35,970 nt of DNA from Candidatus Woesearchaeota archaeon (GCA_018302105.1 JAGWAD010000001.1:1-35970); one strand, 5' to 3'; shown: positions 5,305 to 32,562, counted from the first letter of the stretch. A program made the numbers and translations. Notes: a model not told the origin generated them from the letters alone.

Positions 5305-5312
5305 TTTATAAT

Positions 5313-5351
5313 CTCCTATTATTCTTATAGTAATGCAGTTTTATAAATCTT
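5313..5351 (-). promoter_or_regulatory. TATA box and Shine-Dalgarno of the Zn-ribbon gene
   Basis: On the minus strand, a TTTATAAA-type TATA element (about 5339-5351) lies roughly 40 bp before the ATG at 5304, and AGGAG (5313-5317) lies 8 nt before it. This spacing implies a short 5' leader that contains the ribosome site. The repeat at 5435 starts less than 100 bp further upstream and does not disrupt this promoter. Confidence 0.5.
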
Positions 5352-5434
5352 CCTAGAGAGTTATATCTAAATTAGTATAAATACCAAACTATATATTCAA
5401 AGAGAACAAAGCATAAATTAAAAATAAATCTGTG

Positions 5435-5530
5435 AACCTCCCCACCCCAAGGGTTTGCCTGCTGGCAAATCCGTCTGCTGACGGAGTGGGGCATCAAAAG
5501 AAATTGACTAACTTCAACTGATTACTTTTT
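5435..5530 (+). repeat. 96-bp structured repeat, copy 1
   Basis: Base for base identical to 35872-35967, in the same orientation. It is much richer in G+C (46 of 96) than the surrounding DNA. An outer pairing CCCCAC (5440-5445) with GTGGGG (about 5486-5491) encloses two hairpins. One is GGGTTTGCC/GGCAAATCC (9 bp with one G-T) and the other CCGTC/GACGG (5 bp), and both have TGCT loops. The two hairpins share CC, so they compete or stack. An AT-rich tail ending in T5 follows. There is no open frame. It could be a MITE-like dispersed element, a palindrome-associated IS200/IS605-type remnant, or a small structured RNA. Confidence 0.85.
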
Positions 5531-5794
5531 AAATACCATTTTACACAACAAGAATATGAAATAAATCCAAGATTAGTTGAAAGAATTAAAATTTTATGGA
5601 CAGATCAAAATGAAATACACAATAAAATTAGATCATTTAAAAAAGATTTAGAATATGCTAGAGATAATAAAAGTAAAAATATTATGTTTATTGAGAATGA
5701 TATATCTAATGAAATAATGAGATGTGAAAATAAACTTAAAGAATATGATAAAATTTTAGAAGAAGAACTAGAAATTGGAGGTATAATAGTTTAA
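5531..5794 (+). pseudogene. 5'-truncated coding fragment abutting the repeat
   Basis: An open frame runs from the repeat's right edge to TAA at 5792-5794 and encodes about 87 residues: a short start then NPRLVERIKILW and a highly charged helical, coiled-coil-like stretch (FKKDLEYARDNKSK, ENKLKEYDKILEEELE). There is no start codon near the beginning; the first ATG is at 5684. Composition is protein-like. The simplest reading is that the 5' part of a gene was lost when the repeat arrived. The family is not recognised. Confidence 0.5.
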
Positions 5795-5863
5795 ACTTGC
5801 ATTTTACAGCCTATATTTCTTCATATAACAATAATTATAAATAAAAATTTATTTGTCTTTATT

Positions 5864-6636
5864 ATGTTAGAAGATTGTAAATTTACAAATGGTGAATATC
5901 ATATATTTTTTGATAAACAAAATCCAAAAACATTTATAGCAATAAACAAAAGTCTGTACACTATAAGAAGAGAAAAAATTGCTAACTTCAGAAAAATTGG
6001 CATGATAAATTTTAGTGGAAAAAATTCTGAAATTTATCCATTTGAATTAAAATATAGTGAATTAACCGAAAAGAAGATAATTTGGCCATTAAGGCAGGTT
6101 GCCATTGAATTTGAAAAAAATAACGAAAATAATTTAAGAAAATATTAGGTCTTTACTCAGATCAAAGATCAAATGCAACAAAAGATGGAGTATTATCACA
6201 TTTAAGAGATCAATTAGATTTAGACTTTGAAGGCGGCATTAGAAACATAATTGTTCAATCAAAAATACATTTAATTAATTATAATGGAAAAATAGAGAAT
6301 CCGAAAGGGAAAAACTTAGAGTGTTTTTGGAGTTTCTCGTCTAAATACAGAAAGGATGAAAATTTGAATTTTGCATCACAGTTTTACAGTTTCATAGAAG
6401 ATGTAGAATTCATTAGATTCAGAGAAGAACCAGGACAAAATGGTTATGATTGCAATGTATCTGGAGAACATTTTTGTGGCGAAAAATATCATAGAATTGA
6501 TAATTCTAAATTAGAAGATTATTCTTTTACAAATAATGTTGGTAAATTAAAATGTGCTTTAGGAATGCTTAGAGACGTTAATGGAATAGAATTTCTTAAT
6601 ATAGAAGACACAGTTAAAAGATTGGGTAATTTTTAA
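5864..6636 (+). pseudogene. hypothetical protein gene broken by a one-base frameshift
   Basis: The first frame (ATG 5864) reads 94 codons and stops at TAG 6146-6148, just after LRK. The second frame is open from 6133 to TAA 6636 and continues with convincing coding sequence (ILGLYSDQRSNATKDG onward). Restoring one A to the A4 run at 6139-6142 joins them into a protein of about 257 residues. The joined product looks soluble and has scattered cysteines (C448-region not clustered as a classical finger) and no recognised motif. It may be a pseudogene, a sequencing error, or a slippage-rescued gene. It precedes the convergent 84-aa gene by about 20 bp. Confidence 0.6.
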
Positions 6637-6657
6637 TATTATAATAAAATTAATAAA

Positions 6658-6912
6658 TTATTTTTTCTTTGAATCTTCATTAATTACATTAGTTATTAAT
6701 CGTAGTGTATCAGCAACACGTTCTAAGGCTTTTTGTAAATTATCTATCGAATTATCCATATTAATTAAAGTACCCAAAATATTATTGTCTTTTAAAGTAA
6801 TTTTTCTCATATCTTTTCGTGCTAAACTCAAATCATCTTTACTGGATTTTAATTGCCCCTGTATAAAACTAATTAATTTATATAAAGATTCTACATCTTT
6901 TTCTTTTACCAT
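6658..6912 (-). CDS. hypothetical coiled-coil protein, 84 aa
   Basis: I do not recognise this small protein. It is predicted helical with heptad-like hydrophobics (MDNSIDNLQKALERVADTL) and a lysine tail. A strong Shine-Dalgarno GAGGTGG sits 5 nt before the ATG, and the gene begins 13 bp after the DUF2073 stop, so it is the third gene of the GTPase operon. A partner or adaptor role for the GTPase/DUF2073 pair is possible but only from position. Confidence 0.65.
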   Translation of the reverse strand: MVKEKDVESLYKLISFIQGQLKSSKDDLSLARKDMRKITLKDNNILGTLINMDNSIDNLQKALERVADTLRLITNVINEDSKKK

Positions 6913-6925
6913 TTAATCCACCTCA

Positions 6926-7303
6926 TTACCTATTTTTTTTATCTAAAGTCATTAATTCGATTTTAGTAGGATCTTTTCTTATTTCTTTTACAACAGTTGC
7001 AGGCCCAACAATTGTTAATCCAGGCTTGCGGTTTAATAAAAAATGAGCTATATTCTTTTTAACCTTATCTAATAAATCTAAGCTCCTGAAATCATAATCA
7101 ATGCTTGCAATTTCTATTCCTTTGAATTTCTTGTCAATCTGCTGCATTGTCCTCTTTATTAATTCAGACTCTTCAACAGCATCTAATCTTCCCTCAATTA
7201 TAATTATTTTATCTAATTTAACAGATTTTAATACTCTTTTTAATTTATCATCTAAAGTTAAAGGTGCAAATTCATGATATGGTATATATTGTAGTGTTAA
7301 CAT
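6926..7303 (-). CDS. DUF2073 family protein
   Basis: A 125-aa protein matching the archaeal DUF2073 pattern: LQYIPYHEF at the start, then IIIIEGRLDAVEE, LIKRTMQQID, FKGIEIASID and GLTIVGPATVV near the C-terminus. The family nearly always sits beside an Era-like GTPase, as here, where it starts 15 bp after that gene's stop. A GAGGAG Shine-Dalgarno precedes its ATG. The biochemical function is unknown; genomic coupling suggests it works with the GTPase, perhaps on ribosomes or RNA (inference). Confidence 0.85.
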   Translation of the reverse strand: MLTLQYIPYHEFAPLTLDDKLKRVLKSVKLDKIIIIEGRLDAVEESELIKRTMQQIDKKFKGIEIASIDYDFRSLDLLDKVKKNIAHFLLNRKPGLTIVGPATVVKEIRKDPTKIELMTLDKKNR

Positions 7304-7318
7304 TCTCTCCTCTTTTTT

Positions 7319-7948
7319 TTATTTCATAAGTTTAAATAAGTTGTCATAAAACACTTCCAAATTATGTCCTTTCTCAGCAGATATGCCGATTGTTGGGTAT
7401 TGTGGAAATGCTGCTTCTACTCTTTTAATATCAGCCTTCCTTAAATCTGTTTTGTTTGCAACAATTAATACTGGGATATTACGTGCAGCCAAATTACCAA
7501 TTATAGTTATATTAACTTGGCTATAAGGATTTTGAGTTGAGTCTAAAACAACAAGAACACAGTCCATATTATCAAGCCATTTAATAGCTTCTATAACTCC
7601 TTTAGTAGCTTCTTTTGCCCTTTCCCTGGCTTCTTTGGCATTTAATTTATATTTTAAAAAATCTTCATAATCAATTTTAGTTGCAATTCCAGGCGTGTCT
7701 ACTAAATTAAAAGTTAATTCCTTTCCTTTAGATTTAATTGTAATTTTTTCTTTAACAACAATCTCTCTTGTTTCATGAGGTATTGGAGAAGCCTTACTCA
7801 TTTCCTCTCCAAGCCAGTCTTTTGTAATTTTATTTGCGAGAGTCGACTTGCCGGCATTCGGAGGACCATAAATACCAAGTTTTACATTTTTCCTTTTCTT
7901 AAATACTCCTAAGAATCCTAAAAAAAAGCTACCTATTTTTTTCATCAT
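7319..7948 (-). CDS. Era-like small GTPase, archaeal type
   Basis: The G motifs are complete: G1 GPPNAGKST at 28-36, a threonine-containing switch region near 55-61, G3 DTPG at 84-87, G4 NKTD at 165-168 and G5 SAEKG at 190-194. The 209-aa length is just the GTPase domain with a hydrophobic/basic N-terminus (FFLGFLGVFKKRK) and no KH domain, unlike bacterial Era. It leads the operon with DUF2073 and the 84-aa protein. The second codon is also ATG (MMKK), so the exact start is uncertain by one residue. Function inferred: GTP-dependent switch, possibly in ribosome biogenesis. Confidence 0.88.
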   Translation of the reverse strand: MMKKIGSFFLGFLGVFKKRKNVKLGIYGPPNAGKSTLANKITKDWLGEEMSKASPIPHETREIVVKEKITIKSKGKELTFNLVDTPGIATKIDYEDFLKYKLNAKEARERAKEATKGVIEAIKWLDNMDCVLVVLDSTQNPYSQVNITIIGNLAARNIPVLIVANKTDLRKADIKRVEAAFPQYPTIGISAEKGHNLEVFYDNLFKLMK

Positions 7949-15847: not shown

Positions 15848-16594
15848 CTAATTAAATAATTTTAAAACTTCTTCTTCTATAAAATGTAATTTTCCAGGAA
15901 TTATAAAACATTGTGGGTATATTTCTATTTCACTTTTTAACAAATCTTTTATTTTCCCATACTTAATTATTTGTTTTTCAGTACCCAGACCAGCACATAT
16001 TATAACTTTAGAGTCATTATTTATCAGATTTAATCTTTGTTTATTTTCAATTTTAATAATATAATTAATTCCTTCTTTAAAATTCATAAATTCAAAACTT
16101 GATTTTAAATCAAGTAAAAATAAAGTATGCAATCCAATACTTAAATTATCATTTAATACATTATAAGGGGTTTCTATTTGCTCATTATTGAATGGTATGG
16201 AAGCAGTTTTACCAAAATTATACAACATTAATCCAGTATCTCCAATAACATTCAATATTGATGCATTATGGATTATTTTTAAATCAATATTTTTTTCTTT
16301 TGCACTTAAAAGAATAGTAATGTGCGTAGTTGCGCTAAATATATCTCCTTTGATCAAAACGCTTACAATTTTTTCTTTTGCCTGGTCTAATATACTATTA
16401 ATTTCCTCTTCCATTTTCTTTCTATTGACTAAAATAATTTTTTTAGAAATAAGTTTTTCAAGATTTTCAATTTCAAAGCCAATATTTGAAGTGTAATTTT
16501 CTAAATAGATATAATCAGATTTTTTCAAAGCCTCAATCCCATTTAATGTAATGTCTTTTTCATTACCCAAACCGATGCCAATTAAATATAACAT
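15848..16594 (-). CDS. dphB: diphthine synthase (DphB/Dph5)
   Basis: This enzyme methylates the modified histidine of elongation factor 2 during diphthamide synthesis, using SAM. The 248-aa length fits the family, usually about 255-265. The start LYLIGIGLGNEKDITLNG is the family hallmark, followed by DYIYLENYTS, VLIKGDIFSATTH (the GD(P/I)xxATTH motif), NASILNVIGDTGLMLYNFGK and TIPF-like ASIPF. The C-terminal half has LHTLFLLDLK and a variable end. It lies 8 bp downstream of the start-proximal membrane protein gene, on the same strand, probably cotranscribed. Confidence 0.93.
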   Translation of the reverse strand: MLYLIGIGLGNEKDITLNGIEALKKSDYIYLENYTSNIGFEIENLEKLISKKIILVNRKKMEEEINSILDQAKEKIVSVLIKGDIFSATTHITILLSAKEKNIDLKIIHNASILNVIGDTGLMLYNFGKTASIPFNNEQIETPYNVLNDNLSIGLHTLFLLDLKSSFEFMNFKEGINYIIKIENKQRLNLINNDSKVIICAGLGTEKQIIKYGKIKDLLKSEIEIYPQCFIIPGKLHFIEEEVLKLFN

Positions 16595-16602
16595 AAAAGA
16601 TT

Positions 16603-17076
16603 TTATTTACTAAATTTTATAAGATTAACTGTTTTAACCCCAAGTATTGAAATTAAGCTTCCTGCAGCAAAAGAAACAATATCAAATTTTAAAAAATATA
16701 ATGTTAAAGGAATTAAAAATAATATAACATCAAAAATAATATATTTAAAATTTTTATTAAGATAGATTAATGAACCATAAGCGAGGCTATAAATAAATAT
16801 CAATGAGTTAATAAGAAAACTTATATTATTGCTAAAATTTGAAAATACCAATATTCCAAAAAATAAATATTCCCTCCTTATTAATAAACCAAATAATAAT
16901 CCAGATAAAAATAAAAAATCAAAGTTAATTAATAAAACAATTACTATTAATGACAGTAATATTATGATCTGTAAAATAAAAAAATATTTTTTTCCATCTT
17001 TTAACTCTTCACCTGTATAACTAGCTATAAATAATCCGATAAAAATACCAATAATTGAAATTAAAGCAGATAACAT
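16603..17076 (-). CDS. multi-pass membrane protein, 157 aa
   Basis: I do not recognise a family. Five or so hydrophobic helices fill the protein (about 3-20, 30-50, 52-66, 70-98 and 115-150), with short basic loops (ELKDGKKY, IRREY, NKNFKY). There are no charged residues in the helices that would suggest a transporter site. It lies directly upstream of dphB (8 bp), so shared transcription is likely although a shared function is not implied. Confidence 0.65.
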   Translation of the reverse strand: MLSALISIIGIFIGLFIASYTGEELKDGKKYFFILQIIILLSLIVIVLLINFDFLFLSGLLFGLLIRREYLFFGILVFSNFSNNISFLINSLIFIYSLAYGSLIYLNKNFKYIIFDVILFLIPLTLYFLKFDIVSFAAGSLISILGVKTVNLIKFSK

Positions 17077-17107: not shown

Positions 17108-18775
17108 CTATCTTAAGTTTCTGAATGGCTTTCCAACATCAAGTAAATCGTTTAAGGAATTATTCCCATTTGTGTTTCCAATTAAAAAATTAAGGAAAGT
17201 AGCTTGATTTGAAAGATTATAAGAAGCTGCATTTACACTGTTGTAATTATAAGTTAAATAAAATGCAATATTTGGATTTTTTAATCCTCCGCCAATTTCA
17301 AAATTTTTCAAATTTCCAAGAAGAGGGAAATTAAGATTGCCATAAAATTGGCCAAAGGGAGTTTCTTTGCTTATTCTTAGTAAACCACCAAAACCATTAA
17401 TATTTGACGCATTTAAACCATTAACATTCCTTGATCCTACTTCAGATAATCTAGTTAATTGTTCAGGACTTAAGTTACTTCTTAAACTTGGATCATAAAT
17501 AGAAGTTAAATCCAAACCTAGACTTAAATTAGTACCATGATTTTTAAGTAAAAATTCTAAAGCAGGACTTAAATAAAAATTTGTTTGATCCCCATAATTG
17601 TTAGTAAAATTGCTACCTTCATTTCCTGTGACCTGTTGTTGCACATCTAAAAAAGCTAAATCTGCAGTAAGTTTAAAATTAGTATCAATACTCTTGGAAT
17701 TAACTAATGGCAATTCTATAGTGCCCCTACCAATAAAACCTTTTTCAACACCTGCTATAGTGACATTATGGTAATCTAAAACTGTTTTATTTAATCTATA
17801 TGCTAAAATTAAGCCTAAATTATTATTATATTTAAACAAGGCCCCGGGTAAAATACTTAATGCATCAGTCCTTCTTCCTAAACTTATATTCTTTATTGGA
17901 TCTCTTGCTTCTATATTATTATATTCAGCACCAATCATACCTCCAAATAAGAATTTACCTAAATTAAAACCAACACCTGTTCTAAAATCCAGAGTTAAAC
18001 TTTCTGCATCTACATCACCACTGTTACTTGCATTAAACTTTGTTTTTTTAAAAATAATATCTGAATCAAACGAAAATAATAGAGTTTGCTGTTGTAAATC
18101 TATTCTTTTTTCTCTTCTGCCTGAAACAATATAAGTTCCGCTTTGTCCTTTGAAATTCTAAAGATTGTTTTGATTCTGCAGATGACGGTTGTCCAGGTCC
18201 TTGAGCTTGACGGGAACTACTATTTTTTTCCATTCCCCTTGTAACAGGTTTAGCAGCTCTTTCCCTTCTTCTTTTTTTTCCACCTTCTGCACCACTTCCA
18301 GACTTGGGAGATTCTTCTACTGCAACATCTTGAGGACTTTGTAATCTTCCGTCTGGCTGATAAGGTTTTTTATTGACACGCATTCCTACAAGGAAATAAT
18401 TTGAGTCACTTGGAACAACAACATAGCCCCTATAAGGACCCCTTCCAATTTTTTTTGTACAAGTGGATTTCCCTTATCATCAAAATCATCAGAATCAACA
18501 AATAAAAAAACAGCTTCATTATTTTTTAAGTTATATTGGCTTTTAAGTTTAGCCTTGGGATATTCTGCAGTATTGACAGTAATTGAATCCTGTTTAAGTT
18601 TAACACGGTATTTTCCATCTGAACTTTGCCTGACTTCAAAAGTATTAGGTAAATCTATACCAGGATCAATTAAATTTTTTTCATCAGTCCATTTTTCCTG
18701 TGCATTTGCATCATCAGAAAGTATAGTTACTAAAGCAGCTAATCCAACAGCCTTAATCTTATTAGAAATTATCAT
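17108..18775 (-). pseudogene. secreted beta-barrel-like protein with two compensating frameshifts
   Basis: Three frames join into about 555 codons. The first (ATG 18775) gives a signal peptide ending near DDANAQ and a beta-rich stretch to NPLVQKK. At the A8 run (minus strand; 18449-18456) the frame must shift by -1 to continue IGRGPYRGYVVVPSDSNYFL, then a Gly/Lys/Arg/Ser/Gln-rich linker. Near 18153 it shifts by +1 back to the original frame: FKGQSGTYIVSGRREKR, then more than 300 residues of alternating beta strands (GVGFNLGKFLFGGMIGAEY, NFYLSPALEFLL, LSLGLDLTSIYD) typical of outer-membrane barrels. AGGTGGGG precedes ATG 18775, which is preferred over GTG 18787. It may be a pseudogene, a sequencing artefact, or translated through slippage. 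Family not recognised. Confidence 0.62.
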
Positions 18776-18776
18776 T

Positions 18777-19487
18777 TTAATCCCCACCTTTTTCAGTAGG
18801 TCTATGCCTTCTTATTGAATCAACTTTAGTTCTTTTACCACCTAAAACAAAAGTATATGTATCTGTTGCAGGCATAGTAACTAAAGTGTCAGCTTCTTCA
18901 CTTGGACAGGACTCACCAACTTGAAATTTAAGATGTACTAATTTTTTATTATTAAGATTAGCTACAAATTTATAACAACCATTCTCAGCAAAACTCAATC
19001 TGACAAAATTATAGCCCCCTTCTTCACTTAAAGTTCCGCCAGTTAACTGTTCTTCAGAAGTACCATAAATTCTAAAAATTTTAAAATTCTTTAATTGATT
19101 ACTCTTATCCAGACTTCTGCAATAAATATCTAATCCTTTTTCAACATTTACAGGCCCATATCTGTGTATAACTTTTTTATCTTCTGTTTTTACAATATCT
19201 CTAAGATTTATTTTTGATTCATTGTTTGCATCTTTAATTTTACAATCAAGACTATTTTTTCTAATAACAAGAGCTTCTGTTTCAGCTGTTTCTTCAGCAA
19301 TTCCAAGTATTCTCTCATCATTACCATTTGTTCCTAAATCCGAACCTTGGTTATTTATAGCAACTTTTGTGTTTTCAGAAATTTTCTCTTCACTTTCTTC
19401 AAGCTTATCTTCACAAGAACATGCAGAAATTATAGATATAAAACTAGATAATGCGCCCATAACCATATAATTTTTAATTCCTTTCAT
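18777..19487 (-). CDS. lipoprotein-like secreted protein, 236 aa
   Basis: The N-terminus has a basic start, a hydrophobic segment (VMGALSSFISII) and SACSC, which resembles a lipobox with lipidation at Cys22 or so. An acidic low-complexity linker (EESEEKISENT) and a beta-rich domain with paired cysteines (LDCKIKD, IYCRSLD, NGCYKF, GESCPSEE) follow. The C-terminus is basic (KRTKVDSIRRHRP). Its stop lies two bases from the start of the barrel-like gene, so the genes are coupled. Function unknown; position suggests a partner of the barrel-like and membrane proteins of this cassette. Confidence 0.65.
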   Translation of the reverse strand: MKGIKNYMVMGALSSFISIISACSCEDKLEESEEKISENTKVAINNQGSDLGTNGNDERILGIAEETAETEALVIRKNSLDCKIKDANNESKINLRDIVKTEDKKVIHRYGPVNVEKGLDIYCRSLDKSNQLKNFKIFRIYGTSEEQLTGGTLSEEGGYNFVRLSFAENGCYKFVANLNNKKLVHLKFQVGESCPSEEADTLVTMPATDTYTFVLGGKRTKVDSIRRHRPTEKGGD

Positions 19488-19510
19488 ATTATCTTAACCT
19501 TAAAGTGGTA

Positions 19511-20740
19511 TCATTTATAAATATTATTATTTAAAAAATTTATTTTTAACCAATATCTAGCACCACCAGCATCTGTAGTACGAACCCTTTCTAAAGTTTC
19601 TTCTAATTCTTTTTTTAATTCATCTTTTGGACAATTATTTTTATCTCTGCATTTTAAATCTTTATCATAAACTTTTTCAACTTCTGTTTTACCTAATAAT
19701 GTGACTATATAACTAACTTGAACAGACCCGGTAATGCCTCTTTCTTCATATTTTTTTATAAAATCTTCATCAAAAGCATTAAGGTGATAAGCATTAAGGG
19801 CAAAATCATTATTAAATTCCATTCTTTGTCCTTCCCTGTAACGTTGTCCTTCAGATTTTTTATTTGTTTCTCCAATTGGTTGGGGAGTTTCAACTCCTAA
19901 AATATTATTTCTCTCTGTTACTTCTTCATTAGCAGAATTTTTCCACATTTCATTCTTATTAAGCCAAAGATAACCTAAACCTGCAGCTAAAATAAGACCA
20001 CCTAATGCCCAGGTAAATCCACTCCTGCGTGATTTATTAGAACTAACTTTTATTTTAGGAACTTGCTTTTCTTCAGTTGTAGATTTAACCTTTTCAGGTG
20101 TTTTGTGTTTACCTTGTCCTTTTTCAGCAAAAGCAACTAAATCTTTATAACCTTGCTTCCTTGCATTTTCAATATCAACATTTTCAATATCTTCATATTT
20201 TAATTTAAATTCATTACCACCAGCTTTTACTAAATTTCCATCTTTAAGACTATAATTAATAGCTACATTCTCAAGTGTAAGTTTAGGACCAAACATCTTA
20301 TTCAAAAATCCAAATTTAAAACAACTTTCATATCTTGCTTCAATATCTTTAACAAGAAGAACCATATCAGTTTCTCCTGAAGGAGCAATATATTGATTAT
20401 AAACATGTCTTTTTATATCAAATAATTTTGTACCATCAGAAGCTTTAACAGGAACAACGCCTTTCTCTATATTATCAATAAAAATTGGATCCAAATCTAT
20501 TTGATCCCTATATAGTTTTCTTTCATTTAACTCCTCGCCAGATTGTCCATCAACATTTGGCCAATAAGTACCTTTTAATAAACGAAAAGTATCAAACTCA
20601 TGTATTATTGGAGAATAATTTAATCTTAAATTTTCTATTTCAACAACACCTTCTGAAACTTTACTTTCTAAACCTAAAGGAGTCTTGTCAACTTTGCCAA
20701 AAGACAAATTTCCATATTTTAAACTTATTTCCTTAGCCAT
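19511..20740 (-). CDS. single-pass membrane protein with TonB/AgmX-like C-terminus (tentative)
   Basis: A 409-aa protein. The N-terminal 190 residues are soluble and beta-rich. A basic linker (KTPEKVKSTTEEKQVPKIKV) leads to one membrane helix at about 240-260 (WALGGLILAAGLGYLWL), then a polar region and a C-terminal domain with GSVQVSYIVTLLGKTEVEKV and a Cys pair (KCRDKNNCPKDE) before RYWLKINFL. The pattern 'G-x-V-x-V-x-Y-x-V ... G-x-x-x-x-x-x-V' recalls TonB/AgmX C-terminal domains, but the match is loose. ATG 20740 (MAKEISL) sits 30 bp after a TTTATAAA box; the upstream in-frame extension is spurious. First gene of the 20.7-17.1 kb cassette. Confidence 0.62.
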   Translation of the reverse strand: MAKEISLKYGNLSFGKVDKTPLGLESKVSEGVVEIENLRLNYSPIIHEFDTFRLLKGTYWPNVDGQSGEELNERKLYRDQIDLDPIFIDNIEKGVVPVKASDGTKLFDIKRHVYNQYIAPSGETDMVLLVKDIEARYESCFKFGFLNKMFGPKLTLENVAINYSLKDGNLVKAGGNEFKLKYEDIENVDIENARKQGYKDLVAFAEKGQGKHKTPEKVKSTTEEKQVPKIKVSSNKSRRSGFTWALGGLILAAGLGYLWLNKNEMWKNSANEEVTERNNILGVETPQPIGETNKKSEGQRYREGQRMEFNNDFALNAYHLNAFDEDFIKKYEERGITGSVQVSYIVTLLGKTEVEKVYDKDLKCRDKNNCPKDELKKELEETLERVRTTDAGGARYWLKINFLNNNIYK

Positions 20741-20762: not shown

Positions 20763-20829
20763 GTGACATATTTATAAAGCTTTTGATATACTCTATATAT
20801 TAACCACCAGTTAATGAAATTATAAATAC
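20763..20829. promoter_or_regulatory. divergent promoters with shared 23-bp element
   Basis: For the minus-strand cassette, TTTATAAA at about 20770-20778 lies 30 bp before ATG 20740. For the plus-strand gene, ATTATAAATAC at about 20818-20828 lies about 38 bp before ATG 20865. Between them are a copy of the element also present at 8822-8844 (here 20782-20804) and a small inverted repeat TTAAC-CACCA-GTTAA (20800-20814) that could be an operator. Confidence 0.5.
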
Positions 20830-26553: not shown

Positions 26554-29517
26554 TTATTTCTTAGATTTTTGTGAAACTTTAAATTTTCTGTATTTGAAAA
26601 ATCCAAAACTTCCTAAAATCCCTAATAAAATTATAGACGAGGTTATTAAAGAAGATTTCTTATACTTGCTTAATGTTCCTAAAACTGTAAAACCTGTAAT
26701 AGGGTTATTCTCATTAGTATTTTCTGTTATAATTGAAGTTACTGATTCAACCTTAGGCTGTTCAATTGATTTAACTTCAGTATTAACTACTGGACTAACA
26801 ACACGTTTAGTATTAATTCCTTTATATCTTCTAACTCCATCATCACCATCATTATTATCATTATTCTGAGGAGCAGGAGCCAGTATAATTCCTTTAATTC
26901 CAGAATGTGTTAATCCTGCTATTTTTATTGTTCCATCAGTTTCAACGCATAGTATATTACTAATATTTGTTTCAACAGGATTTTTTAAGCAGTTTGTAAA
27001 GTCATATTCGTCTTGCTGATCGCAATTAACACTTATATTACTTGCAGATAAGACTTCAGCATTTTTAACACATAATTTATTAAAACCATTGTTCTTTAAA
27101 TATAAAGTCTTAACTTCATTCTCTAATAATTGCCCATCAAAGTCTACTATTAATGAACTATCACCTAATACAATTTTTATTCTGCTCATATCTAAATCAT
27201 TAGTTTCATTGAATATACGCCCAAATTCTATTAATTTATCATTGCCATTATAAAATACAACAAGATTATAGCCTAAAGGTTTTGTTATCTGATTCATATA
27301 AGATCCATTTACTGTTGCATTAAAGTTTTCTATCCCAGAAACATTTACTCTTGTTAAATTCCATAAAGGTTGAGATACAGGTTCTAATTTGTTTATATTC
27401 AAAAAATACTGCGTCGCTTCTCCACCAACTTTAGGCGCTAAATATATAATTATCCTATTATTTCCAGTATATAATTTAAAAGTCATTGAACCGTCTTCAT
27501 TTATTATTTCATCATCGCTGTTTATTTCATTTAACGTATCCATACTTATAGTAGCATCTGCTGATGATGATGCATTCAAAGTAATATTATCCTCATTAAA
27601 TTGTGCTGTAAGATTATATTCAAATTTCATAGGGTCAAAATTTATTTGCTCTTTTAAATTTCCACTTAATGTGTTTAATAAGGCTCTTGGATTTCCACTA
27701 GCATCTAAATCTTCTTTGTTTACTACAAGCATATATCCAATACTTTCTGCTTCTTCTCCCTCTTCAGAAAATTGTTTCACAGACATTAATATTTGATTAT
27801 GATTTTTATTTAATCTGAATGTTGCTGTTCCGTCTTCATTATATATTATATCTTCTGCATTACCCTGATCCCATATACTAAATTCTATTTTATCTTTTGA
27901 TATTTCTTCAACCTCTTTTGATTCTAATAAATTGATAATATCTGAATTTCTATAGATTTCAAAATCAATAATATATATACTGGCTGTTATATTTAAGGTA
28001 ATATTCTTCTCATCTCTATTGGCATTAATCTCATAATAATTACCTGTATTTAAGTCATTTCTAAGTGCTGTAAATTCTGGAGTTAAATCATTTTCAAGAT
28101 TTTCTTTTATTGATTTTATTAGGTTTATTTTCATATTTTTAAATATATAGTATACATCTTGAAAAGTATTAGAATTTTCACTGACAAATATTTCATTCTC
28201 TTCTTTCTCTCCTCCTAATTCAATTGCTACAAATAAAACTACTCTGAATCCTTCTGGTGCAAATACATTTTGAAAATTATATTCTTTTATTGTTAATACA
28301 CTATCTCTATTTGAAGATACTACTGGTGGTAAATCTTCTGTTGCAACTTCTGTCATTTCTTCACCATTAACCCAATAGATTCTTACTTTTGCTTTCAAAT
28401 CAGGTGTATTTATTGAATGTTTTATTGCATCATCTAATTCTTCTTGTGTTTCAAAGTTTTTTGTATCATCATTAGTGTTTGTTATCTTTATTGTTAAATT
28501 TCCTGTCTGTGAATTATAATTGTAATCAGATATGTCGATTTGAGGTAGAAAATCATTATTATCGCATACATTTCCTTCTCCATCATTATCATAATCTTCC
28601 TGATATAAATTCCATATTGCTGGACAATTATCCACATTATCTATTATATTATCTTCATCTGTATCAACATCACTAAGATTATCAGGAATCGGCAAAAGTA
28701 TTCCCCCACCACCACCACTTGAACTACCATTATTATAATCAAACTTTGTTGTTAATGTTTGCCAAACTAATTCACTCTTATTTACAAGAACTTTTATACC
28801 CCACGTTCCAAATTTATCGCCTAATCTTCCATATTCAATATCATCCTCTATTAAAGAAGTTACAAATTCTTCCAATTGTCCTGACTGTGTGTATCTTTCT
28901 TCTGGTTGTTTCATAAAACGCTCATCAAAAAATTCAGTTACGCCTGCAACACAACCACCCATTCCTGTTGAAAATTCATAACCAGAAGGATCAATTAAAT
29001 ATACTTCACAAGAAGAAAATTTTTCTTGTGGAAGTTGAATATTAATCTTGACATAATCTCCTTTACCATAAGTTTCTTGATCTGTCCAAATTTTAGCTTT
29101 AATAGTTTGTTTATTTACTATTACTTCATAGTTTAGACTTTCTCCTGGAAAATCTGGTTGTGGTATTTCAAATTTTATTACATTACCCTGACCATATAAT
29201 CTTAATGTTGCAGAATATCTATTTAATACTGTTATATCTTCTTGTTGTATTGCTCCATAAAACATCACTTCAACATCTTGTGAAAGTTCTAAATTAAATG
29301 TTACTTCATTCTCATCTGTTCCAGCATTGATATTATAAATTTTTTTATCTGCAGATGGATCTGAATTAAATTCAGGTGACAAGCTATCATTTAAGTTTTC
29401 TGTTATTGAATTTAAAATTACCAATTCTGGATTTTCAGGTGTTGCGCTAATAGCTGGCAAAATTAATATTAAAGATAGTAAAATTACTAAAAAGATATAT
29501 AATTGTAATTTTTTCAT
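26554..29517 (-). CDS. large surface protein with cadherin-like and TSP3-type repeats
   Basis: A 987-aa exported protein. The signal peptide is residues 1-25 (LYIFLVILLSLILILPAISA). Three related beta-sandwich repeats of cadherin-like (Cadherin-like_b1) type lie at about 35-145, 469-602 and 609-710, each with a Y-x-I/V-N-A ... N-I-T-L-N core. A calcium-binding thrombospondin type 3-like segment sits at about 281-320 (DTDEDNIIDNVDNCP, DYDNDGEGNVCD). The C-terminus has a TM anchor after PITGFTVLG, then the basic tail YRKFKVSQKSKK. Probably a cell-surface adhesin or S-layer-associated protein. It ends about 185 bp from the previous gene (26369-26553, where I see no gene). Confidence 0.8.
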   Translation of the reverse strand: MKKLQLYIFLVILLSLILILPAISATPENPELVILNSITENLNDSLSPEFNSDPSADKKIYNINAGTDENEVTFNLELSQDVEVMFYGAIQQEDITVLNRYSATLRLYGQGNVIKFEIPQPDFPGESLNYEVIVNKQTIKAKIWTDQETYGKGDYVKINIQLPQEKFSSCEVYLIDPSGYEFSTGMGGCVAGVTEFFDERFMKQPEERYTQSGQLEEFVTSLIEDDIEYGRLGDKFGTWGIKVLVNKSELVWQTLTTKFDYNNGSSSGGGGGILLPIPDNLSDVDTDEDNIIDNVDNCPAIWNLYQEDYDNDGEGNVCDNNDFLPQIDISDYNYNSQTGNLTIKITNTNDDTKNFETQEELDDAIKHSINTPDLKAKVRIYWVNGEEMTEVATEDLPPVVSSNRDSVLTIKEYNFQNVFAPEGFRVVLFVAIELGGEKEENEIFVSENSNTFQDVYYIFKNMKINLIKSIKENLENDLTPEFTALRNDLNTGNYYEINANRDEKNITLNITASIYIIDFEIYRNSDIINLLESKEVEEISKDKIEFSIWDQGNAEDIIYNEDGTATFRLNKNHNQILMSVKQFSEEGEEAESIGYMLVVNKEDLDASGNPRALLNTLSGNLKEQINFDPMKFEYNLTAQFNEDNITLNASSSADATISMDTLNEINSDDEIINEDGSMTFKLYTGNNRIIIYLAPKVGGEATQYFLNINKLEPVSQPLWNLTRVNVSGIENFNATVNGSYMNQITKPLGYNLVVFYNGNDKLIEFGRIFNETNDLDMSRIKIVLGDSSLIVDFDGQLLENEVKTLYLKNNGFNKLCVKNAEVLSASNISVNCDQQDEYDFTNCLKNPVETNISNILCVETDGTIKIAGLTHSGIKGIILAPAPQNNDNNDGDDGVRRYKGINTKRVVSPVVNTEVKSIEQPKVESVTSIITENTNENNPITGFTVLGTLSKYKKSSLITSSIILLGILGSFGFFKYRKFKVSQKSKK

Positions 29518-29588: not shown

Positions 29589-32483
29589 CTAGTTAAAGGG
29601 TGGTCTATGCATCATATATTGTTTATATTTTCTATATCTAAAAAAACCATAACTTCCTAGCATTCCTAAAACAATAACAGAAGCAGCACTTAATGATTGT
29701 TTTTTGTATTTTCCAATATTATTTGCAAATACACCAAAACCTGTAATTGGCGGTGCTGAATTTTCCTGCTTTGATTCAGTATTTCTCGCATTAGTATTAG
29801 GCTGTTCATTTACTTGTGCATTATTTTCTTCATTCTTAACACTATTATTTACATTTTGGATTACAAAATTATTTTGAGTTTGGTTTGTTATTAGAGTATT
29901 ATTTACAATGTTATTATCTCTATTTCTTCCCCCACCACCACCATTAGTATTGCCATTTCCAGGATCAAAAGAAGATTGACTTATTGAAAATATTAAAGAA
30001 TGTAAATTAGTCATTGTATTTATACCGTCACTGCAGGCAAAATGATAATTATAACTTAATCCAGGACTCAAAGCAAAATTAACTAAATGATTTTTACTTC
30101 CAGTTGTAGTCATGTCAGTCATAGCATTATAAGCTAATGTGAAGTTCACACTGTATCTGCAGTTAGCATTTTCATCAGTAACTAAACTAATATTTACATT
30201 ATTTGTATTTGCACTAAAAACAGTATTATTTATTTGTGAATAACTTAATATTTTAGGCGCTAAATTATCAACAACTTCAAAAGTAATCCAAACCAATTGT
30301 GAACTTCCAGCTACATCATCTGAAAAGACACTTAAAGTAAAGTTACCTAGACCCAAATCCAAACCACTTACTACTAAATTTTGATTTTCTGAATTTATTT
30401 CATATAAAGTATTATTTGTTGCATCTCTTATTGTTAATTTAGAAGAATTTTTATTTAGTTCTTCAACTGTATAATTGGTTATTAACGAATCTAATTGTTT
30501 TTCTAATGTAAGTTTATTATAATTAAGATTAACATCAGGCACTACAGTATCAACTAAAAAATTATATTCATCTGTATAAACTTTATTATTTACTATATCT
30601 TCACAACCAATTTTCCATTTATGCCAGCCATCAATAATATTTTGCTCAAAAAAGTTATTAACCTTATTAATCTCTGTTGAATTAGTTAAATTTAAACTAT
30701 TATCAATATATAATTCACATTTGTCTACAAAGATACTATATTCATCTGTAACATTATATAAAAATTGAGTATAACCTCTATCAAAAATACTTGAATTACC
30801 TGGATAATTTAAATCAATAATAGGTGCATCATTATCAACATTAACAGCACTATTAACAACACTGATTAAACCCACTTCATCAATGCATTCTAAATCAAAC
30901 GTCCATGATCCTGTTTCTGCAAGATTTAAATAAAATGAATTTAATTCATCACTAACAACATTTCTTGAATCTAAAATAAATTCTCCAGTTAAAGGATTAA
31001 TAGCTGAAAGACTGCATACAATATTATTAGAATATAAATCACTTGCATTATAAACAAAATTAACTGTTGCATTAGATAACTGTCCATTTGGTAATAATAA
31101 GGCAATATTTGGTGCACTATTATCAATAATAAAATTATAAGACACATTATTTATATTATTTAAGCTGTCATTTGCAAAAACTTGCACAACATTATTGCCT
31201 TCACCCCATAAAGAAGTATCAATTGAAGTTTCTCCATTTGTTAATTGTAAATAAACCTCATTTTCATTATTCAATTTATACCAAACACTAATAATATCCA
31301 AAGCATCTGTTAAACTAAAGTTCAATAATGTGCCATTTATTACAAAATCTCCATTAGAAGGATTAATCAGTTCTATATCTGGTCCATTAGTATCCAATAA
31401 AAATGAACTTGAATAAGAAGTTTCAAATCCAGCATTATCTTCACATTTCAATATTGAATTATAATTTCCATCTAATTTATTGTTTAAATCTGAAACAATC
31501 TGGGAATTATAAGAATTGTCTGTAAAATTTACAGCAGAATTTGGAATATTTGGGTTATTATCAGTCTCCATATATAAATTACATGCAACTTCTGGAGAAA
31601 ATCCATACTGTTTTGTAAAAAATGAATTATCAGTTACATTATATGAAAATGTCTGTGCCAGATTATTTGTTGCAAAATCTTCATCAAAATTTGCTTTTAT
31701 TAAAGGAGACTGATCATCAACATAAATATGATGTGTATTTGCATCATCATACAAATTATCAGCATTATCATAAATATCCATTATTTTAAAATCTAAAAAA
31801 CTCAAATTTGGATTCATAACAGAAGGATTAAAATTAGCGGTATATAATCCTAAATTATAATTAAGATTAAAAGTGAAATTTCCAAGACCTATAGAATTCT
31901 GCGGATTGTCATTATCATCAGCTTCAATTCTAGATAATTTTAAAGTATCAATCCCAGTTTCAGCATCAGTGGCAGTTAAAGAGAACGTAAATGGTTCATT
32001 CTTAACAAAACTATAATCTTTAGGAGAATTTATTGTAACAATTGGTTTTACATCATCATTAAGAACAGTAACATCAAAGGTATTTGTTTCCAGATCACCA
32101 TTAGTATCAACTGTATTAACAGTCCAGATGTAAGTTTTATCTTGATTGACTTTATTTAAATAAGCATTAAATCTGACATTATTAATTGAATCAGGCAAAA
32201 ATGCAACAGTGCCATTCCAGTTTATTAGATTAGAATCATTATAATGTTGCCATGATTGAGGATCTAATACATTTAAAAAAGAGATACCATTAGTAACAAG
32301 ATTAACTTTATCAATAGAATGCATGCTAGTTAATTGATTTTCAATACTCAACCTAAAATTAATATTTTTAGTTTCATATTGTGGATTATAATTAATTAAA
32401 TTAACAACAGCATCATGTGCAGCATAAGTCGGAACCAGAGAAACTAATAATAAAACTATGAATAAATAACCTCTTTTTTTCAT
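29589..32483 (-). CDS. large surface protein with Ig-like repeats and PITGF anchor
   Basis: A 964-aa exported protein (from ATG 32483). The signal peptide is YLFIVLLLVSLVPTYAA. About eight Ig-like beta domains of roughly 100 residues follow, each opening with a motif such as DDVKPIVTINSPKD, DTNGPDIELINPSNG, DNSAPNIALLLPN or VDNDAPIIDLNYPGN. A Gly/Asn-rich linker leads to a C-terminus with PITGFGVFANNIG, KYKKQSL, a membrane helix and a basic tail. ATG 32483 is preferred over a TTG fifteen bases upstream because a TATA-like TTTTATATA lies about 30 bp before it. Likely cell-surface adhesin or S-layer-associated protein. Confidence 0.8.
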   Translation of the reverse strand: MKKRGYLFIVLLLVSLVPTYAAHDAVVNLINYNPQYETKNINFRLSIENQLTSMHSIDKVNLVTNGISFLNVLDPQSWQHYNDSNLINWNGTVAFLPDSINNVRFNAYLNKVNQDKTYIWTVNTVDTNGDLETNTFDVTVLNDDVKPIVTINSPKDYSFVKNEPFTFSLTATDAETGIDTLKLSRIEADDNDNPQNSIGLGNFTFNLNYNLGLYTANFNPSVMNPNLSFLDFKIMDIYDNADNLYDDANTHHIYVDDQSPLIKANFDEDFATNNLAQTFSYNVTDNSFFTKQYGFSPEVACNLYMETDNNPNIPNSAVNFTDNSYNSQIVSDLNNKLDGNYNSILKCEDNAGFETSYSSSFLLDTNGPDIELINPSNGDFVINGTLLNFSLTDALDIISVWYKLNNENEVYLQLTNGETSIDTSLWGEGNNVVQVFANDSLNNINNVSYNFIIDNSAPNIALLLPNGQLSNATVNFVYNASDLYSNNIVCSLSAINPLTGEFILDSRNVVSDELNSFYLNLAETGSWTFDLECIDEVGLISVVNSAVNVDNDAPIIDLNYPGNSSIFDRGYTQFLYNVTDEYSIFVDKCELYIDNSLNLTNSTEINKVNNFFEQNIIDGWHKWKIGCEDIVNNKVYTDEYNFLVDTVVPDVNLNYNKLTLEKQLDSLITNYTVEELNKNSSKLTIRDATNNTLYEINSENQNLVVSGLDLGLGNFTLSVFSDDVAGSSQLVWITFEVVDNLAPKILSYSQINNTVFSANTNNVNISLVTDENANCRYSVNFTLAYNAMTDMTTTGSKNHLVNFALSPGLSYNYHFACSDGINTMTNLHSLIFSISQSSFDPGNGNTNGGGGGRNRDNNIVNNTLITNQTQNNFVIQNVNNSVKNEENNAQVNEQPNTNARNTESKQENSAPPITGFGVFANNIGKYKKQSLSAASVIVLGMLGSYGFFRYRKYKQYMMHRPPFN

Positions 32484-32562
32484 GCTAAGTATTCTCAAAT
32501 TTAAAGTTATATAAAAACTTTGTGTTTAACTATCCAACTTCACTTTTCGCATGACAATTTAG

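Follow-up and report, generated by a model that had tools for sequence, protein, structure and literature searches.

A lineage-specific, fast-evolving surface gene cassette with TonB-like and barrel-like features in Woesearchaeal genomes

Could three neighbouring genes of an archaeon encode a system that spans the cell envelope in the way known from diderm bacteria? The question is raised by a contig on which an initial annotation had read three consecutive minus-strand genes as coding for a TonB-like membrane protein, a lipoprotein and a secreted, barrel-like protein. The stretch of DNA analysed, here called the window, is the whole of contig C1 (35,970 bases) from a genome of 1.15 Mb in 42 contigs that is 98% complete with 0.45% contamination.

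The genes and their setting

The three genes, here called A, B and C, are indeed present as a consecutive minus-strand block, and the contig that carries them is Woesearchaeal. Archaeal-type genes lie near the cassette (dph5, a PorAB-type oxidoreductase, a PIN-T2SSE-KH ATPase and a Trp/Tyr-type tRNA synthetase), an archaeal ribosomal-protein operon is found on another contig of the same genome, and those relatives of the dph5 locus that bear names are mostly Woesearchaeota, including archaeon GW2011_AR18. Elsewhere in the window, two adjoining large exported proteins (26554-29517 and 29589-32498, both minus strand) have similar C-terminal membrane anchors that are 54% identical over the last ~80 aa, with a further relative on contig C27. 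The features of the locus are as follows.

20768..20778, minus strand: TATA-box-like sequence TTTATAAATAT before gene A, read from the sequence, function putative
19511..20740, minus strand: gene A, 409 aa, bitopic membrane protein (ORF; TM prediction)
19961..20017, minus strand: predicted TM helix of A (aa 242-260), with KSRR before it (TM prediction)
19514..19798, minus strand: TonB-like C-terminal domain of A (model pLDDT 56; hhalign rank tests)
18777..19487, minus strand: gene B, 236-aa predicted lipoprotein with a beta-rich outside domain, a variable member of the cassette (ORF; lipobox)
19419..19430, minus strand: lipobox ISAC of B (aa 20-23), read from the sequence
about 17108-18775, minus strand: gene C as a whole, in three overlapping frames
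18446..18775, minus strand: first part of C, a Sec signal peptide (aa 1-25, ANA/Q cleavage) and N-terminal domain (ORF)
18150..18445, minus strand: middle part of C in a second frame, a charged Pro/Ser/Lys-rich linker (frame change at an A8 run)
17108..18150, minus strand: C-terminal domain of C, about 330 aa, a barrel-like candidate ending in [DN][IL]R-COOH (profile homology; motif)
16603..17076, minus strand: small multi-TM protein, 157 aa, adjoining the cassette and a syntenic anchor in relatives
15848..16594, minus strand: dph5 (diphthine synthase), a syntenic anchor (Pfam TP_methylase)

The genes are tightly spaced: A is separated from B by 23 nt and B from C by 1 nt, and C lies 31 nt from the next gene, which encodes the small TM protein and is itself 8 nt from dph5. 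A TATA-like box (TTTATAAATA, 20778-20769) stands 30-40 nt before A and may be a short-leader archaeal promoter of this gene. With such spacing and such a box, A, B, C, the TM gene and dph5 look like one transcription unit. A sigma-70 and terminator scan gave nothing above shuffles, which is expected of an archaeon.

Gene A encodes a protein with one predicted TM helix (aa 242-260) and no signal peptide, and because the basic stretch KSRR precedes the helix, the positive-inside rule would place its N-terminal domain in the cytosol and its C-terminal domain outside. The lipobox claimed for the second protein can be read in B, where a signal peptide carries IISAC at aa 19-23, and B is therefore predicted to be an archaeal lipoprotein with a lipid-modified cysteine. 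This does not make B special, as a rough scan of the same genome (L003-L080; 1.15 Mb) gave about 25-30 candidate lipoproteins.

The third gene had been described as coding for a secreted protein with a long alternating beta pattern. Both its Sec-type signal peptide (MIISNKIKAVGLAALVTILSDDANA, with cleavage before Q) and the beta pattern are there, but C is not one open frame, as the frame changes twice, at about 18,445 near the A8 run and close to position 18,150. These changes may be either sequencing errors or real damage. C is intact in all six syntenic relatives, and frame changes are otherwise rare in the window genome, with three candidates among about 184 conserved loci.

Conservation by position and speed of change

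Single-protein searches with A and C found no relative in 117 related genomes, nor did a search with A in 103 genomes of the order, and the same was true of A or C against viral, genome, phage and plasmid collections. No relatives of B were detected by sequence in the ten genomes of the family, the three proteins of the window have no match in Pfam, NCBIfam, PHROGs or the PDB, and no paralogues of them were found in the window genome (the part of contig C38 that consists of N aside). Two apparent matches arose by chance: L011, which had come up as a paralogue of C (E 0.004), is an AAA ATPase, and L043, matched by P0004, is a ribosomal-protein ORF.

Relatives were found by position. The dph5 gene was located in eight of the nine other genomes of the family and the region upstream of it was then read, which revealed a cassette just upstream of the small TM gene and dph5 in six of the nine (G002, G003, G004, G006, G007 and G008). 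The style is a protein with a TonB-like C-terminus and, after it, a large protein exported by way of a signal peptide; the G007 contig begins near the cassette, and only C and a short lipoprotein are visible on it. There is no cassette at the dph5 locus of G005, the contig of G001 ends at this locus, and dph5 was not found in G009. In other, more distant Woesearchaeal families the TM gene and dph5 are present but no cassette accompanies them. The recurrence of the three genes as a block had been set beforehand as a refutation test; a block does recur in the six family genomes, in favour of the initial annotation, and its core is A and C with B optional, B-like proteins being found in the window, G003 (hhalign rank 9 of 413) and G007 only. 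Three relatives (L096:8340-8789, L098:8576-9019 and L099:8115-8570) have a gene for a conserved protein of ~150 aa (MGFKARV...GRAYIHYLGMNEVYGS...) in the interval from the TM gene to dph5; it has no counterpart there in the window, and an ORF similar to it is also present in L135.

The C proteins of G002, G003 and G008 find each other, with E values of 1e-14 to 3e-9 for G002 against G003 and G008. When a profile was made of these three C-terminal domains, with the window C left out, it found the window C (E 1.7e-4) and the C of G007 (E 6e-5) among about 7,800 ORFs and no further ORF below E 0.1, and by these profile comparisons the C proteins of five genomes are homologous. With an extended alignment C was found in five of 190 genomes, all of the same family, apart from weak matches; one match of the C profile, in G177 (E 0.002), is to a P-type ATPase and due to chance. 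The C proteins of G006 and G004 take hhalign ranks 1 and 10 of 402, which is suggestive of a relationship to the others. Furthermore, four of the seven C proteins (window, G002, G003 and G008) end in [DN][IL]R, an ending that occurs in one of 1216 ORFs of the window genome, namely C, and among the 1107 ORFs of the relatives' loci in C genes and one other only. In G002 a similar stretch is shared by A and C (E 2e-5; L099:3994-5253 and 5312-7540), a pattern that suggests domain exchange within the cassette.

Between genera dph5 is 46-60% identical, and most of the cassette proteins fall below detection. Export alone is insufficient to explain this speed of change, since a different large secreted protein encoded in the window remains detectable in four other family genomes (best E 7e-82). 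The cassette is a real, lineage-specific and fast-evolving surface system.

TonB-like and barrel-like features

The C-terminus of A had been called TonB- or AgmX-like by eye. A has no match in Pfam, NCBIfam or PHROG; the TonB_C family (PF03544) has no match at E<=0.1 in the window genome and none over cut-off in 99 genomes. The weak matches in G083 and G003 are chance ones, to a short ORF of a soluble protein and to a small, unrelated lipoprotein, respectively. In the model of the domain, which is of low confidence (pLDDT 56), the order is alpha-beta-beta-alpha-beta, and this helix-strand-strand-helix-strand order is also that of TonB. A Foldseek search with the model, at this pLDDT of 56, gave no significant match. 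Its best VIA overlaps are with little-finger domains of Y-family polymerases (Z about 6, up to 6.3), a widespread alpha/beta arrangement, and no TonB structures are among the VIA matches listed.

A clearer signal came from profile comparison by hhalign with a TonB profile made from three bacterial C-termini (E. coli, Pantoea and Klebsiella). The six syntenic A C-termini take ranks 1, 3, 6, 13, 20 and 65 of 671 (Mann-Whitney p = 2.8e-5 for the six against 665 controls), whereas the reversed profile, used as a control, gives p = 0.17; the A of the window alone is at rank 13 of 671 with a modest score. None of 80 shuffles reached the TonB score for the window, G003, G004 or G006, whilst one did so for G008 and seven for G002. 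The alignments in the window, G003, G006 and G008 cover the G-x-V...D-G-x-V core, and that of G004 spans 8 columns only and is to be discounted. The sole NCBIfam match of the G008 protein is to the AgmX/PglI C-terminal domain (E 0.065). Leave-one-out HMMER searches gave no mutual detection of the A C-termini, which the hhalign rank test alone achieved, and full-length A proteins did not detect each other either. What can be retained is therefore a single-pass anchor and a TonB-likeness at the level of the group, supported by profile comparison for six syntenic proteins taken together, but below the Pfam cut-off and with no fold-search match.

The resemblance of C to a beta-barrel has modest support. 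Hydropathy alternation is strong in C, but other secreted, mostly Ig-like, proteins of the window genome score as high or higher, and it was dropped as a barrel-specific sign. The single-sequence model of C has a pLDDT of 29; fold searches with it gave no significant match, and the best Foldseek matches, to hairpins of pore-forming proteins and of CsgG, are unusable at this confidence. What does point to a barrel comes from the relatives: the C domain of G006 (archaeon GW2011_AR18) has a match to OMP_b-brl (E 5.3e-4) and the C domain of G004 one to PorP_SprF (E 0.03), both below cut-off, so that two of seven third proteins have a sub-threshold match to an outer-membrane-barrel Pfam family. This compares with none of 20 other strongly beta-patterned or Gly-rich secreted proteins of the window genome, whose matches, where there are any, are to Ig-like, PKD, FG-GAP or other families (Fisher p = 0.06). 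In a comparison with 128 secreted controls, E. coli OMPs are also the closer to the C profile (p = 0.001), which was not seen with a control query taken from one of the window's secreted proteins (p = 0.52). Ig, PKD and CARDB models have no match in the C domains, for which a barrel family provides the sole match with E < 0.01. An aromatic C-terminal residue (beta-signal) is absent, the C proteins ending in R, K or N. Taken as it is, the evidence is suggestive of a barrel-like C-terminal domain.

The same archaeal genome encodes a further barrel-like protein that is unlinked to the cassette (L072:3645-4397, plus strand, the same as G000:C35:22645-23397). It is an exported protein of 251 aa, MKIRTALLLGLLSLMPIKAAAETKTSLGYNRT...SSVNLGLNL, which OMP_b-brl (E 5.1e-4) and Porin_4 (E 5.4e-4) match below threshold, and it has no sequence relatives in 236 genomes.

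Comparison with known systems and possible roles

A resembles bacterial TonB (PF03544) in its single-pass inner-membrane anchor, its outside domain, modelled at low confidence in an alpha-beta-beta-alpha-beta order, and its profile similarity as a group, and the cassette resembles TonB with its TonB-dependent outer-membrane barrels in having a partner gene for an exported barrel-like protein. However, A is archaeal, has a long cytosolic N-domain and scores below the family cut-off, and the cassette has no ExbB/MotA, Omp85, recognised TonB-dependent receptor or plug domain. A cytosolic domain, a TM helix and a TonB-like C-terminus are also found in GltG/PglI and GltJ/AgmX of myxobacterial gliding (NCBIfam NF033768); GltG/PglI combines FHA with PF03544 (PMC3169522), and the Glt genes, like the cassette, have signal-peptide proteins alongside, GltH among them with a weak autotransporter-barrel match (PMC3169522). 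Unlike GltG/PglI, A has no recognised FHA domain and no sequence homology above cut-off, and unlike the Glt/Agl gliding system the cassette has no homologue of the AglRQS (MotA/ExbB-type) motor and consists of only 2-3 genes. That a TonB-like protein of the membrane can serve a structural rather than a transport role has a precedent in SjdR of Anabaena, which, according to the accessible part of its description (PMC8262864), differs in being bacterial, exceptionally short and active on septal peptidoglycan; that part reports no linked barrel gene, unlike the pair of A and C. OMP_b-brl (PF13505) and PorP_SprF (PF11751) are the Pfam families that two of the syntenic C proteins match best, below gathering scores, and C differs from them in its extra N-terminal domain and linker, and in ending with [DN][IL]R in place of an aromatic residue.

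The two-membrane, envelope-spanning reading of the locus has lost ground, since Omp85 (PF01103) and ExbB/MotA (PF01618) are absent from the ten family genomes, whereas the same searches were positive in 7 and 8 of 14 controls, respectively. The cassette belongs to neither the TonB/ExbB nor the Bam-dependent OMP systems in their defined sense. In a published survey, archaea yielded no members of the Omp85 superfamily (PMC4104836). Archaea with two membranes do exist, as in Ignicoccus (PMC7613921) and Altiarchaeum (PMC4460559), and the accessible portions of these two papers make no mention of barrels.

The explanation that we prefer, tentatively and as slightly short of an even call, is a fast-evolving system of this lineage, for the envelope or for cell contact and of a kind not known from archaea, that would work in the manner of a TonB-type linker paired with a surface barrel. 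A would be anchored in the cytoplasmic membrane, with its cytosolic domain inside and its TonB/AgmX-type domain outside. C would leave the cell by Sec and consist of an N-terminal outside domain, the linker and a ~330-aa domain most like outer-membrane beta-barrels, and B, where present, would be a lipid- or helix-anchored beta-rich partner. We infer that the outside domain of A docks onto C and would so couple the cell interior to the outermost layer, which may be an outer membrane, the S-layer gap or the membrane of a partner cell, for the purpose of contact or uptake. The cassette would most likely work in the manner of a TonB-type linker together with a barrel or ectodomain on the outer side. 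This explanation does not account for the insertion of a barrel in the absence of Omp85, or for its energy supply in the absence of ExbB.

A single-membrane cell could instead use the three proteins as a surface adhesin, a reading that is doubtful yet a serious possibility. C would then be a soluble ectodomain rich in beta structure that A and B keep at the S-layer, and the C-terminal domain of A only a small alpha/beta binding fold, with neither a barrel nor a second membrane. The lack of Omp85 and ExbB in the family genomes fits this, as do the many Ig-like secreted proteins of the window genome and an alternation score of the window C that is not above those of other secreted proteins. It is less easily reconciled with the group TonB signal of the A proteins, or with C domains that, unlike several other secreted beta proteins, match no Ig, PKD or CARDB model and have a barrel family as their only match with E < 0.01. 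It would seem improbable that the cassette is a device directed at a partner, with C entering or attaching to a host membrane as an episymbiont's contact or pore and A and B as release or anchor machinery: there is no known host, no match to a toxin or pore family and no sign of release from the cell. What favours it is that the proteins are mostly undetectable between genera despite the identity of dph5, at a speed for which export alone is insufficient given the other secreted protein detectable in four family genomes; the abstract of one account also describes the cultivated DPANN known so far as contact-dependent ectosymbionts (PMC11291902).

It is very unlikely that the locus is a relic or an artefact, be it a locus in decay in this genome or a piece of bacterial DNA brought in by contamination or chimeric assembly. 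The two frame changes in the window C and the failure of single-protein searches to find close relatives could be read in this way, but the six relatives, several of which come from independent public assemblies, carry the cassette intact and between archaeal flanks at this same site, and even in the window the C-terminal frame of C remains open over 349 codons. For the family as a whole such a reading is largely refuted.

A Woesearchaeal family with true membrane beta-barrels and a TonB-type envelope-spanning linker, and without Omp85 and ExbB, is a rather unlikely outcome. If it were so, it would imply an outer membrane, or insertion into the membrane of a partner, together with a new route of barrel assembly in which the conserved [DN][IL]R at the C-terminus may be a guide. 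The open-access papers searched contain no report of a linker of TonB type from DPANN archaea, and the cassette makes the question of diderm DPANN archaea directly testable. Synteny can recover surface systems that are wholly missed by sequence search; here it has brought to light a TonB-like and barrel-like pair, kept in position and hypervariable in sequence, that is a concrete candidate for the means by which uncultured Woesearchaeota touch or feed on partner cells.
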